64,000 nucleotides of DNA from Rubritalea profundi. GTDB lineage: Bacteria > Verrucomicrobiota > Verrucomicrobiia > Verrucomicrobiales > Akkermansiaceae. The translations under genes and the position numbers were made by a program. The stretch is from contig NZ_MQWA01000001.1 of assembly GCF_002954445.1 (NCBI RefSeq), forward strand, positions 2,814,512-2,878,511, in the 5' to 3' direction. Shown here one piece after another: positions 1,014-33,585 of the stretch; positions within the stretch are counted from its first letter, which is position 1; every line of letters begins with the position of its first letter. The notes beneath the pieces are model-generated. The model worked only from the letters and a program-made list of their open reading frames with translations. It was not told the origin of the DNA and did no database searches.

Positions 1014-2423
1014 CATTGGCGTCAACCTAAGTCGTAACTTATTTATCTAAAGATAAATACATAAATAAATGTATGTTTATTCTTGACGTGAGGCCAGATC
1101 ACGCATGCTTGGCATGTCCAAATTTAAGAAGCGTGATGGTGGAAATGTTGTAATCGAACATTATCTTGGTGACCTTGAATCAATTGCCAAGAGTGTGGGA
1201 TTTATCGAACGAGAAAGTGAGCACTTTTCGGCAGAAGGATTCTTGCGATCACTTTTTAGATCACTCGAAGATGGAAAGGCCTCGTTACGAAAATTGGCCA
1301 GTCGCATGGCGACTATAAATAATAACTCGCTATCAAAGCAAGCTCTCTGGAAGCGTATTAAGAAAGACTCTTGCCCTGATTTTTTACAAGCAGTATTGGA
1401 CAAAGTAAATGGACAACAAACTCCAGAGAATCTCAGCCCCCGCAACTCGAAGTGTAAAAGGCTTATTGTCCAAGATTCCACACAGATACGGAGTCACAAA
1501 AAGAATCATAAACATTATGCTGGAACTTCTAACAAGTCGACGCGGATATCTTGTGCGAAGATTGATCTCACGATGAACTTTTTGACCAACGACATCCTGC
1601 TAATCCAAGAATCTAACGGCAAAGAGCAAGATCGAACACTAGGGAGGAACCTGTTACCACTGCTTGAGAAGGGTGACATGAAAATTAGAGATTTAGGTTA
1701 TTCAGCTTTGGAGTCATTTAAGTATGCCGAGGGTATTGAGGCGCTCTGGATGAGTCGTTTACATGGTCAAATAAAAGTCTGGATCGAAGATGGGAATACT
1801 TTAGAAAGCCTCCTTTCAACGACTTTAAAGAGTACGTTAGATATACATGTACGTATTACCGCGCATGGCCACACTTGCCGTTTAGTCGCGGTGAGATGTA
1901 GTAAGGAAACTGTGGACCGCAGACGAGCGAAGCGGAAAGAAAAAGGAGATACAAAGAGGAGGAAGCGTAGATCCAATGGAGACCTTCGAGAGCAGTGGAG
2001 CCTTTACATCACAAACATCCCAGAGGAACAGCTAAGTACCCATGAGGTCATCTCATTTTATGAACAACGTTGGGCCATAGAGATTACGTTTCGAGCCCTA
2101 AAGGGTGCAAGTAACATGCAAAAAGCAATGAGAAGTCCGACTAACAAGAATCATTTGCAATTGATTCTGAAAGCCGCTCAAATCTTAGCTTTACTGACAT
2201 CAAAGGTCCAAGCGGTGGTAGCTGCACACCATAGTATAGAACGGTGTAAATTGAGCATCGAGAAGTTCATGGACTGGATGCTTTCATGTTTATCACAACT
2301 TGACTCCATGAATATTGCGTATCCATACCGACTGAGGGAGTTGTCACATGAAGTTCGAATAAAAGGTAAGACTTTAGCCCAGAGAAGGATAGGTCACCTT
2401 AAGTGCTTAGGTTGACGCCAATG
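1014..2423 (+). mobile_element. Intact IS4-family insertion sequence, 1410 bp
   Basis: The ends are perfect 18-bp inverted repeats: CATTGGCGTCAACCTAAG at 1014-1031 and its exact complement at 2406-2423. They are flanked by identical 10-bp direct repeats, GGAGGTTTCC. Because the flanking bases also pair, the inverted repeat could be drawn as 20 bp with an 8-bp or shorter duplication; 18+10 fits the family best. The single transposase gene fills the element and stops 8 bases before the right end, inside the repeat. Perfect repeats, an exact duplication and an open transposase frame indicate a recent insertion that may still be active. The target is the noncoding region upstream of recA. Confidence 0.95.
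1105..2415 (+). CDS. IS4-family DDE transposase
   Basis: A 436-residue transposase catalysing cut-and-paste movement of the surrounding element. The catalytic triad is visible: Asp124 in IVQDSTQIR, Asp196 in IRDLGYS and Glu326 in the YREK signature, which is exact (Tyr319-x2-Arg322-x3-Glu326-x6-Lys333 in YEQRWAIEITFRALK). Residues 270-292 form a very basic insertion (RRRAKRKEK, then KRRKRRS) within the beta-strand insertion typical of this family. ATG at 1105 gives MLGMSKFKK; ATG at 1114 is equally possible. The AT-rich leader at 1040-1085 contains near-repeats of ATAAATA and may hold the promoter. No frameshift or internal stop was seen, so the enzyme should be functional. Confidence 0.95.
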   Translation: MLGMSKFKKRDGGNVVIEHYLGDLESIAKSVGFIERESEHFSAEGFLRSLFRSLEDGKASLRKLASRMATINNNSLSKQALWKRIKKDSCPDFLQAVLDKVNGQQTPENLSPRNSKCKRLIVQDSTQIRSHKKNHKHYAGTSNKSTRISCAKIDLTMNFLTNDILLIQESNGKEQDRTLGRNLLPLLEKGDMKIRDLGYSALESFKYAEGIEALWMSRLHGQIKVWIEDGNTLESLLSTTLKSTLDIHVRITAHGHTCRLVAVRCSKETVDRRRAKRKEKGDTKRRKRRSNGDLREQWSLYITNIPEEQLSTHEVISFYEQRWAIEITFRALKGASNMQKAMRSPTNKNHLQLILKAAQILALLTSKVQAVVAAHHSIERCKLSIEKFMDWMLSCLSQLDSMNIAYPYRLRELSHEVRIKGKTLAQRRIGHLKCLG

Positions 2424-30714: not shown

Positions 30715-30977
30715 AGTATATAGACCAATTTTTTTGTCTAAAACTCAGTGAAGCATCTAGCGTGCCAACTTTGCAAGCGGGGTGATATTTTTTAATAAAT
30801 TAAATTCCTCCTCCTCCTCCCTTATCTTATTTTTTTGGTATTAGACGGGTGCGGTTAACTTCTAGCTGCGACTTTTGGGGATCTTTGACAGAGGCTATGT
30901 CAAGAGGTCATGGAACTGTCGAATGTCGGAATGTCAAAAGTCTAGCTACATTGATTGGTCGAGATTGTGTGAGGGGG

Positions 30978-31913
30978 ATGAATGGCCTTGACGGATTTGC
31001 TTTGGATGGGGAGTCTTTTGACATGTCCGCTGTAGCAGAGCCATTGATCGATTACCTCCGCCAATTAGAGCGTCAGGGGGAGACGCATGTGCATCTGGAT
31101 GGTCGTTCTCGCTTGATTTTAAGGGAGTTCTTTGTGAGGTCGAGGGGTAGGTCAAGTAGTCTAGTAAGCCAACCACAGGCGGCAGCAGTTATTGCTGAGA
31201 CAAAGGTGGAAGAAACCAAGGTGCGCGTTGCTGAGCTGGCTTCCAAGCCCGCAGTCGTTATACCTACGTCGGAAGCTCCTGTACAGCAGGCCCCATTGAG
31301 TAAATCTCTGGAGGGACTGAAACAGCAGATTGCTGAGGATTCGGGCTTGAAATCTCTAGGGACACTGCGTGATAAATTAGTTTTCTCTGAGGGGGAAGTC
31401 ACTTCCGATGTCCTGTTGGTAGGGGAGGCTCCAAGCTATTATGACGAGAGCAATGGTAAGCCATTCTCTGGTCCAGCAGGCAAGAAGATGGGGGCTATTT
31501 TAAAGGCAATGGGACTGAATCGCGAGGAAGTCTATATGACGAATATGGTAAAGTACCGTCCCGCGATGGCGAATCAGACCACTAATACTCGGAAGCCAAA
31601 TGCGGATGAGATTCAGGCGTCGATACGCTATTTGATGGCTGAGATCGAAGCCGTCAAACCTAAGGTCATCATTGTATTAGGCGCGACAGCGGCCAAGAGC
31701 CTGATCGGTGCAGATGTGCCAGTGGCGAATATGCTAGGGCAATTCCATAAAGTGGCTGGGGTGCCAGTCCGTGCCACCTACCACCCGAGCTATCTGCTGC
31801 ACGCAGGCGCGACAGATGAGAAGCGAGCTGTGTGGAAGGATATGCTGGCTGTGATGGAGTTGTTGGAAATGCCGATCAGTGAGAAACAGCGCGGCTTCTT
31901 TAAAAAGAAGTAG
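30978..31913 (+). CDS. Family-4-like uracil-DNA glycosylase lacking all Fe-S cysteines
   Basis: 311 residues from ATG 30978, preceded by GAGGGGG; the frame is open to 30849, but the extra part looks noncoding. Residues 1-60 are a helical region followed by a Val/Pro/Glu-rich linker. The last 200 residues are a UDG superfamily domain: motif LLVGEAPSYYDESNGKPFSG with the following GPAGKKMG, then YMTNMVKYRPAM and the HPSYLL motif near the end. Family 4 enzymes coordinate a 4Fe-4S cluster with four Cys; here KxxRP reads VKYRP (Tyr for Cys), and ASIRYL and LRDKLVF also lack Cys. It should excise uracil or a related base from DNA, but activity is unproven. Confidence 0.85.
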   Translation: MNGLDGFALDGESFDMSAVAEPLIDYLRQLERQGETHVHLDGRSRLILREFFVRSRGRSSSLVSQPQAAAVIAETKVEETKVRVAELASKPAVVIPTSEAPVQQAPLSKSLEGLKQQIAEDSGLKSLGTLRDKLVFSEGEVTSDVLLVGEAPSYYDESNGKPFSGPAGKKMGAILKAMGLNREEVYMTNMVKYRPAMANQTTNTRKPNADEIQASIRYLMAEIEAVKPKVIIVLGATAAKSLIGADVPVANMLGQFHKVAGVPVRATYHPSYLLHAGATDEKRAVWKDMLAVMELLEMPISEKQRGFFKKK

Positions 31914-32276
31914 GCGGGTTATCATACTAGGAATTTTTTTAGACAGAATTTACAAAATTAACAGAATTTCTCATGGGTAGTGCAGACCAACGACATCAGA
32001 AACATCATGGCTTGTCGGAAATTGCAGTGAGTAGCTCCAGTTTAGTAGGCTAATTCTGAAGAATTCTGTCAGTTCTGTCGAGCGCCGCAGGCATCAGCCC
32101 AAGTCCCTCCCCCGTGTAGGAGCCCTGGCTCTGCCTCCGATCGCTTCGTAGTGGATTATTATTCCTAGATCAATCAGACTGAGCATACCATGATGTTCAA
32201 TGGTTCCAGTTTCGATTGAAAAAGCCCCCAACAAGGACTTGTATTGTGCCCTTATCAACAAATAAAATAGACTATA
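31914..32276. other. Repeat-rich region upstream of the flavodoxin gene
   Basis: No gene seen. It contains two ACAGAATT-type repeats: GACAGAATTTACAAAATTAA followed by CAGAATTTCTC at 31941-31973, and the left arm of an inverted repeat at 32048-32128. The final 60 bases (CTTGTATTGTGCCCTTATCAA region) probably include the flavodoxin promoter. Confidence 0.5.
32048..32128. repeat. Left arm of an 82-bp inverted repeat framing the flavodoxin gene
   Basis: The reverse complement reads CCAGGGCTCCTACAC, then a diverged middle, then GCCTGCGGCGCTCGACAGAA, TGACAGAATT and TTCAGAATTA. This order matches 32867-32948 on the direct strand, with about four fifths of positions identical. Confidence 0.85.
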
Positions 32277-32864
32277 ATGACCGCTGAAAATGAAAAATTG
32301 AGTTCCGATGGTAGAGTTTTGATTCTCTATGATTCTGCGAGTGGTAATACCGCTGCGATGGCGCAGCTGGTAGCCGAAGGGTGTAAGGCTGTGGCGGGTA
32401 TCGAGGTCCGCCTACTGAGTATAGATGAGGCTACTGCCGAGGACGTTGTCTGGTGCGATGGGATCGCCGTTGGCAGTCCGACGAATATGGGGTTGATGTC
32501 CTGGAAAATGAAACGCTTTTGGGACGAAACCATGCTCGAAAAGTGGATGAAAATAGATGGTAAAATCGGATGTGCGTTTTCGTCAGCAGGCGGTTGGGGC
32601 GGAGGCTCTGAGATTGCCTGTCAATCGATCCTGTCGGTGTTGATTAATTTCGGGTTCCTAGTCTTCGGGGTCACTGACTACGTGAGTAAGTTGACGACCT
32701 TGCACTACGGCACGATTACGGCACGTGAACCAAGGAGTGAGGAGGCGAAAGAGGCTTGCCGAAAACTGGGTAAGCGACTTGCGGAGTGGGTTGCCGTCTA
32801 TTGCGTCGGCAACAAGAGCGAGCATCCTCTCGAGAAGGATGATGTGCGCTTGTTTCCATCCTAA
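32277..32864 (+). CDS. Flavodoxin-family FMN protein
   Basis: 195 residues. The FMN phosphate loop is LILYDSASGNTAAMAQLVAE, close to the N-terminus; isoalloxazine loops appear as AVGSPTNMGLMSWKMKRFWD and AFSSAGGWGGGSE. The size and the SPTNMG/GGWGGG pattern fit the WrbA/flavodoxin-like NADPH reductase group rather than short electron-transfer flavodoxins. The physiological partner is unknown. It is a lone plus-strand gene whose flanks carry the two arms of an inverted repeat, the right arm beginning 3 bases after the stop codon. Confidence 0.85.
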   Translation: MTAENEKLSSDGRVLILYDSASGNTAAMAQLVAEGCKAVAGIEVRLLSIDEATAEDVVWCDGIAVGSPTNMGLMSWKMKRFWDETMLEKWMKIDGKIGCAFSSAGGWGGGSEIACQSILSVLINFGFLVFGVTDYVSKLTTLHYGTITAREPRSEEAKEACRKLGKRLAEWVAVYCVGNKSEHPLEKDDVRLFPS

Positions 32865-32866
32865 TA

Positions 32867-32948
32867 CCAGGGCTGCTACACTAGGGAGATTATCTAGGTT
32901 GTTGCCTGCGGCGCTCGACAGAATTGACAGAATTTTTCAGAATTAACC
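32867..32948. repeat. Right arm of the inverted repeat framing the flavodoxin gene
   Basis: Reads CCAGGGCTGCTACAC, a diverged middle, GCCTGCGGCGCTCGACAGAA, TTGACAGAATT and TTCAGAATTAACC. It is the inverted partner of 32048-32128. The arms enclose about 740 bp that contain only the flavodoxin gene. Confidence 0.85.
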
Positions 32949-33042
32949 AATGATGGCCGATGCTCTTGCGGTATTTCAGATAGAATGAAAGGTTTCGTCT
33001 TTTTTTAGTTAAGTCTTTTGAGGGGGTCTGGAGGGTTAAGCT

Positions 33043-33585
33043 CTATGGGTCGAAGGAGGGGAGCCCGTCGATGCTGTGTTGGTTTTTCTCGGCTCGGTAG
33101 GCGTCTAACTTTTCAGGTCCTTTCACCTGGCTCCATTTATCAAGAATGTCTCTATTTCCCTTATAGTCATAATAGGGGACGGAGTAGCCACAGGAATCGG
33201 TGACACGGGTCACTTCAATGTGAATGATTACCCGCGTTCCTGGATTCTCTGGGAAGTGTTCTGCCAAATCCTCGAAGCGCGGGTCGCCGGGCAGGTTGAC
33301 TGAACCCGTACCGTGGAGTCTAACAATCTGCGGAGGACCTTCGAAGGCGCAGAACATGATAACGATGCGTCCATTCTCTCGTAGATGGGCGACGGTTTCC
33401 GCACCACTTCCGGTGTAGTCTTGGTAGGCGACTTCTAACGGTCCGAGAACTCGAAATGATTCACCACCTTTTGGAGAATTGTTGATGTGGCCATCAGCAG
33501 CGAGCGGCGCAGTGCCGACAAAAAACATCTGCTGGTTTTCTATCCAAGTGGCCAGCTCAGGAGTGATGTTAGAGTGTAGATTCAT
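33043..33585 (-). CDS. Pyridoxamine 5'-phosphate oxidase-related flavin protein
   Basis: 180 residues with the split-barrel flavin-binding fold: TPELATWIENQQMFFVGTAP, GHINNSPKGGESFRVLGP and YQDYTGSGAETVAHLRENG, followed by RIVIMFCAF. This is the general PNPOx-like family, with members that bind FMN, F420 or heme, so the substrate is open. It is probably not the PdxH enzyme itself, as the PLP-binding C-terminal motif is not seen. It follows the SRPBCC gene on the minus strand with a 14-base gap. Confidence 0.8.
   Translation of the reverse strand: MNLHSNITPELATWIENQQMFFVGTAPLAADGHINNSPKGGESFRVLGPLEVAYQDYTGSGAETVAHLRENGRIVIMFCAFEGPPQIVRLHGTGSVNLPGDPRFEDLAEHFPENPGTRVIIHIEVTRVTDSCGYSVPYYDYKGNRDILDKWSQVKGPEKLDAYRAEKNQHSIDGLPSFDP

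Follow-up and report, generated by a model that had tools for sequence, protein, structure and literature searches.

Inverted repeats beside a flavodoxin-like gene of Rubritalea profundi are most likely two copies, placed by chance, of a new family of MITEs whose ends are of the ISAs1 type

The stretch of DNA analysed here, referred to as the window, comprises 64,000 nucleotides of the Rubritalea profundi genome (G000; 4.17 Mb, 4 contigs). A uracil-DNA glycosylase (UDG) superfamily gene (30849-31913, plus strand; Pfam UDG 5.4e-33) is followed on the same strand by an open reading frame of 195 aa (32277-32864), whose product is flavodoxin-like (Pfam Flavodoxin_1 E 1e-9, FMN_red 8.9e-7). Within 31500-33500, a single inverted pair was detected (32048-32099 and 32897-32948), whose 52-nt arms are 90% complementary and 797 nt apart; the right arm is followed by a minus-strand PNPOx-like gene. 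The 20-mer GCCTGCGGCGCTCGACAGAA has exactly two exact matches in the window, one per strand (32073-32092, minus; 32904-32923, plus), and was found in none of 100 dinucleotide shuffles. The likeness of the two arms is beyond chance. The initial annotation had described inverted arms sharing a perfect 20-mer, the right one placed just after the flavodoxin stop codon, and both observations are confirmed, the right element beginning 2-4 nt past that stop. Elsewhere in the window (1105-2415), a DDE_Tnp_1 transposase ORF flanked by inverted CCATTGGCGTCAACCTAAG copies represents an insertion sequence.

Each arm belongs to a longer element. The left element (31916-32126, minus strand) is a complete MITE of 211 bp, as judged by TIR alignment and length; it is a member of subfamily B and begins 2 nt past the UDG stop codon (31911-31913). 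One of its inner arms carries a module iterated in units of 9 bp, GACAGAATT-TACAAAATT-AACAGAATT (31942-31968, plus strand, by pattern match), and the exact match to the module pattern at G000:C1:2846449-2846479 corresponds to window 31938-31968. A second inner module, GACAGAACTGACAGAATT (32062-32079, minus strand), is inverted to the first. The piece at 31942-31968, assigned to repeat family D1, marks the opposite end of the left element and is a third related piece beside the two arms. The right element (32869-33022, plus strand) was assigned to subfamily A by alignment with five other A copies and by BLAST. It has kept 154 bp: similarity to the A copies ends at TTTTGAG, and the right inner module and right TIR are absent beyond this point. 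The flavodoxin-like gene lies between the two elements and is part of neither.

Both elements belong to a family dispersed through the genome. The search for further copies of the 20-mer, proposed in the initial annotation, returned 18 sites genome-wide with at most 3 mismatches, against none for a reversed control, and these sites are mostly single and intergenic, a distribution which that annotation had itself associated with chance pairing. BLAST of the R. profundi genome gave 31 matches with the left copy and 19 with the right, some of which cover the short inner module only. The aligned copies share the order of outer TIR CAGGGCTCCTACACTAGGGA, short stretch, motif GCCTGCGGCGCT, module of 9-bp units (GACAGAATT-nACAAAATT-nACAGAATT), middle, inverted module and inverted TIR. 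The TIRs are ~20 bp long and imperfect, with a near-perfect 17-bp pair in L128. The element is about 200-245 bp long, and the complete copies scored for duplications span 203-256 bp. The copies contain no internal ORF of 90 aa or more; one ORF overlaps the end of L012. Subfamilies A and B have unrelated middles. With TIRs, target duplications, a non-coding interior, a length below ~600 bp and several dispersed copies, the elements constitute a new MITE family. Two further repeat arrangements were noticed in passing: a second repeat, about CTTCCTTCGCTCTGAAGCTATGGCGGACAGGTT, adjoins the 20-mer in L010 and L013 of the same genome, and fragments of the element core form mosaics with other short modules (CACGAAAGACGCGAAAC, CCACAGAATACACTGAAATCACGG, CATTCATCATTCACAATTC), connected through CTTGGGTTGAT linkers, in L005-L007 (G000:C1 about 3108600-3115000) and in L131.

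Sixteen complete copies, 9 from R. profundi and 7 from relatives, were scored for flanking direct repeats with 0-3 nt of slack on each side; the TIR ends were placed by eye from alignments, and some duplications had been noticed by eye beforehand. Direct repeats of 7-11 bp, mostly 9-10, flank nine of the 16 copies with scores of 6-11, while none of 240 mismatched left/right flank pairings between copies exceeded 4 (0/240 at the copies' score). The duplications measure 10 bp in L001, 9 bp in L004, L011 and L012, 7 bp in L010, 11 bp in L125, 10 bp in L126 and, with one mismatch each, 9 bp in L128 and 10 bp in L134; examples are GGAGCTAATC, GGACTTCTA, GTCCACTTG, CTCAGTTTCC and TTTTACAAGG. No scored duplication was found for the remaining seven, namely L008 (which scored 3), L015, L014, the left copy of the window, L124a, L124b and L109. 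The right copy of the window stood outside this scoring, its far end being absent. Given that the duplications adjoin the TIRs, the TIR-bounded unit is what inserted.

Related copies are present in four of the 12 genomes of the genus, R. profundi included, and among named genomes they were found in Rubritalea and in Verrucomicrobiales MAGs. An exact scan with a long pattern returned nothing, a looser pattern returned 8 stretches, and viral contigs returned 0. A scan of 260 genomes of the family for the TIR, allowing 1 mismatch, gave matches in 3 genomes; no transposase ORF was recognised in one of the loci so obtained (L135). In another genus, L132 (G210:C58:2419) is bounded by similar ends that enclose another iterated repeat, with no clear duplication. 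A MITE of G062 (L159:3425-3646), outside the set of 16 scored copies, has a perfect 10-bp duplication, TTCTGAGTGT, and again a different iterated inner module, GCAGATTTTCGC.... These two elements show the same kind of outer TIR with other inner iterated modules (AACCGCGAAGGC..., CCGCAGATTTTCGC...), and the inner modules look as if they were exchangeable. At the window locus itself, the UDG protein has a counterpart in all 12 genomes of the genus at only 41-53% identity, and the flanks of 11 relatives (up to about 1.5 kb on each side) gave no match to the flavodoxin or PNPOx protein; an empty site is therefore unreadable at base level.

Members of the ISAs1 family have CAGGG ends and generate target duplications, in general of 8-10 bp. 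Table 3 of PMC6305408 lists one published member, ISArsp11, with the IR CAGGGCTGATGCAAAGTCG and a 10-bp DR. The MITE ends begin with CAGGG or YAGGG and the target duplications fall in the ISAs1-like range, and ISAs1 was therefore suspected as the parent. Matches to the ISAs1 profile NF033564 occur in eight of the 12 genomes of the genus. The R. profundi genome has 0 such matches, with no ISAs1 transposase left, and holds no transposase-bearing copy with these TIRs. Its TIR pattern (at most 3 mismatches) gave 13 sites, 12 of which are ends of MITE copies already known. A full-length parent in this genome was rejected, the sole new site (L080) sitting among ordinary genes.

In G062, three ISAs1 copies of 1271-1276 bp (L137, L145, L150) are bounded by CAGGGC(T/G)AACTCACTTT and flanked by exact duplications of 10 bp, and L157 and L159 have the ends CACGGTCATCTAGCTAGGGA. 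An intact ISAs1 of the same genome, L154 (1264 bp, 409-aa open frame, no visible duplication), has the TIR CAGGGTCATCTAGCTAGGGA, which is identical at 15 of 20 positions to the R. profundi TIR CAGGGTCACTACACTAGGGA and at 12-15 of 20, ungapped, to the R. profundi MITE TIRs generally, a partial agreement only. The closest-matching remnants are decayed and lie in G022. In L160, TAGGGACTTCACACTAGGGA stands ~52 nt ahead of the point where similarity to the L154 transposase begins (38% over 121 aa), and in L162 a 2-mismatch version of TAGGGACTTCACACTAGGGA stands beside the C-terminal part only, which marks an internally deleted copy. The L160 TIR agrees with the TIR of the G062 MITE at 19 of 20 positions and with the R. 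profundi MITE TIRs at 14-15 of 20; the present MITE was not found in G022. When the ISAs1 loci (94 kb) were shuffled, five of 20 sets contained one TIR-like match and 15 contained none, so that a TIR match beside ISAs1 coding sequence is unlikely to arise by chance. ISAs1 elements with a matching TIR thus occur in the genus (L160 and L162 in G022, L154 in G062) and none in R. profundi, and an ISAs1-family transposon is the likely parent of the MITE on this sequence evidence. Since R. profundi has no NF033564 match, we infer the derivation from ISAs1 and the mobilisation here from relatives. Given the absence of the parent transposase, the copies in this genome are probably relics.

The arms of the window are therefore read, with high confidence, as two independent insertions of MITEs with ISAs1-type ends, the flavodoxin gene being a bystander. 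The ~20-bp TIRs would have been recognised in trans by a DDE transposase, presumably one of the ISAs1 family, which would have inserted the dispersed copies with target duplications of 9-10 bp. Two copies of different subfamilies would then have landed separately and in opposite orientation, one just behind the UDG stop codon and the other just behind that of the flavodoxin gene, where insertion would be tolerated, and the right copy would have lost its far end later.

The inner modules also occur on their own and around another gene. The module pattern was found at 12 places in the R. profundi genome, of which two lie within MITE copies, including the one in the window, at 11 places in G058 and at 9 in three other genera, amounting to five of 60 genomes with 0 matches for reversed controls. 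Two of the G058 sites flank a GxxExxY gene. Elsewhere in R. profundi, solo modules (T-run and GACAGAATTnACAAAATTnACAGAATT) account for 12 module-only matches with no convincing TIR nearby, one 3-mismatch match being present in L034. They are intergenic (L030, L033, L034, L036, L037, L039, L041, L042, L046, L047, L048 and L065), and L047 is the downstream module of a GxxExxY gene, L178.

A search with PF13366 (PDDEXK_3) gave 15 matches in seven of the 12 genomes of the genus (L177-L191), two of them in R. profundi (L178, G000:C1:3324841-3325167; L184, G000:C1:2021848-2022195). The 220 nt before each profile match were compared with the 220 nt around the stop. At 12 of the 15 loci the inverted repeat score was reached by 0 of 200 shuffles and at L182 by 2 of 200; L189 and the partial L183 showed no framing inverted repeat. 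For 55 window ORFs scored alike, with slightly milder gap costs, scores averaged 10.9, and no more than two ORFs attained 20, namely the insertion sequence with the DDE transposase (1105-2415) and the flavodoxin gene. The resulting units of module, GxxExxY gene and inverted module sit between genes. The ACAGAATT module type occupies one shared site in four genomes, with neighbours 73-90% identical; from its flanks, we take this site to resemble the nuoG/nuoH junction. Other types are CACGAATT, CACGGAA, CACAGA, GCTGATT and CAGATTATTTAGATT. In L177 and L180, GCGCCGCAGGC, the motif of the window elements themselves, stands beside the downstream module. No ISAs1-like TIR was found around any of 23 GxxExxY loci. 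The window has the inner modules with no GxxExxY gene between them, the flavodoxin gene lying outside the module pair.

One orthologous site in six genomes (L177, L180, L181, L182, L183, L184) has both neighbours 74-94% identical and GxxExxY proteins 44-67% identical (L183 partial). L180 (G062) and L181 (G009) have the CACGAATT type in common and 63% protein identity. By contrast, L177 (G058), whose neighbours match those of L180 at 93-94% identity, carries the CACGGAA type, and its GxxExxY protein is 52% identical to that of L180. Module sequence thus follows the GxxExxY subtype and not the neighbours, and at this one site gene and modules appear to have been swapped as a unit. A tblastn search of PLSDB plasmids found 8 records with GxxExxY. 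Inverted modules (0 of 200 shuffles) were present in three (Bacteroides finegoldii, Bernardetia, Sphingomonas), direct repeats instead in three (Persicobacter, Fusobacteria ZRK30, Prevotella nigrescens) and neither in two (Treponema, Gemmatirosa), so that the framing is common and not always inverted. A tblastn search of phage records with one query gave no GxxExxY match.

The link between modules and GxxExxY genes is supported as an association, mechanism aside. It is conceivable, though we would not expect it, that the 9-bp-iterated modules serve as the recognition ends for a mobile system not yet described, with GxxExxY, a relative of PDDEXK-type nucleases, as its gene, and that the window elements are gene-less versions captured in ISAs1-type MITEs. 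Applied to the pair itself, this would make the inner modules, rather than the outer TIRs, what primarily moves: relatives of GxxExxY cassettes that have no gene and were also trapped in such MITEs. The same module type frames L178 in this very genome, the inverted module pairs of the genus loci are beyond what shuffles reach, solo modules exist without TIRs, and an inner-only pair occurs in G058 (L107). However, the measured duplications adjoin the ISAs1-like TIRs and not the modules, the solo modules could be debris, and neither a target duplication nor an empty site came to light for modules or GxxExxY cassettes. This explanation of the pair is thus considered unlikely.

It is still less probable that the elements are structured regulatory or terminator elements, kept at gene ends for ending or protecting transcripts. 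In 12 of the 24 copies tabulated, the 3' end of a gene faces the element at a distance of at most 30 bp, which also fits tolerated insertion behind stop codons, and the full copy L004 folds end to end with z -5.67. For the window copies, however, folding was no stronger than in shuffled sequence (z -0.39 and +0.78), and the target duplications show insertion. A simple scan found no terminator-like site in 31800-33100 and three promoter-like matches, all in the repeat itself, and Rfam gave no match at E<=1. A later domesticated role would be compatible with the insertion evidence.

A composite or gene cassette, in which the two elements are the ends of one unit that brought the flavodoxin gene in, is very improbable; the geometry of a cassette had been put forward in the initial annotation. 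The arms do have the inverted geometry, and flavodoxin homologues are rare, being found in two of 60 family genomes (R. profundi and G032; E<=1e-20) and two of 194 phylum genomes (R. profundi and G340; E<=1e-30). Yet the copies of the window come from separate subfamilies, have dispersed relatives and share no duplication; as the right copy lacks its far end and the left shows no duplication, no outer end remains for a composite. Moreover, G032, the one of six genus relatives searched that has a flavodoxin homologue (54%), has no element match at E<=1e-5. With 19 copies (a tally of distinct places) placed at random, an inverted neighbour pair arose in 3.5% of simulations within 850 bp and in 4.9% in adjacent intergenic gaps, the 3500 gaps and exponential lengths of the gap model being assumptions; such a pair is uncommon by chance, but this one was picked after the fact for its looks. 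REP/BIME elements, finally, are ruled out by size and TIRs. The earlier suggestion of a transposon derivative without transposase, or of repetitive-element copies, holds for each arm singly.

The window pair most likely consists of chance-placed members of the new MITE family, and so resolves into an ordinary kind of element whose ISAs1-type parent can be traced; a pair of inverted arms does not have to be a cassette. The by-product on GxxExxY matters more than the pair itself. At most loci examined, matching iterated repeats stand on both sides of these genes, which were met here in several phyla and have no established role. With repeat type covarying with GxxExxY subtype at a fixed site, the role of GxxExxY would become testable, as a nuclease relative, its repeats and a possible substrate can be named. 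The accessible portions of the literature on GxxExxY, PDDEXK_3, PF13366 and TIGR04256 yielded nothing on flanking repeats, and those on Verrucomicrobia MITEs, ISAs1-related MITEs, Rubritalea transposons and repeat sequences yielded no paper on this MITE family.

Bacterial MITEs in general (MITEAba12, PMC6382973; review, PMC10969869) are short, non-coding, multi-copy elements with TIRs and target duplications. The present family is alike in all these respects and differs by subterminal inverted arrays of 9-bp units, the one-sided GCCTGCGGCGCT motif and two subfamilies whose middles are unrelated. With ISAs1-family insertion sequences (NF033564; ISArsp11) it has in common the YAGGG ends and duplications of ~10 bp, and within the genus the L160 TIR agrees at 19 of 20 positions with a MITE TIR; unlike these, the MITE has no transposase gene and measures ~215 bp versus ~1.27 kb. 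REP elements, characterised in the relevant part of PMC3733652 as palindromes of 20-40 bp, are likewise dispersed intergenic repeats near gene ends, but the MITE differs in its length of about 200-256 bp, its TIRs and its target duplications. The GxxExxY loci (TIGR04256 / PF13366) resemble the MITE in their inverted pair of 9-bp-iterated modules of the ACAGAATT type, as well as in the GCGCCGCAGGC motif at L177 and L180, and differ from it by a gene of ~120 aa and by having no ISAs1-like TIR.
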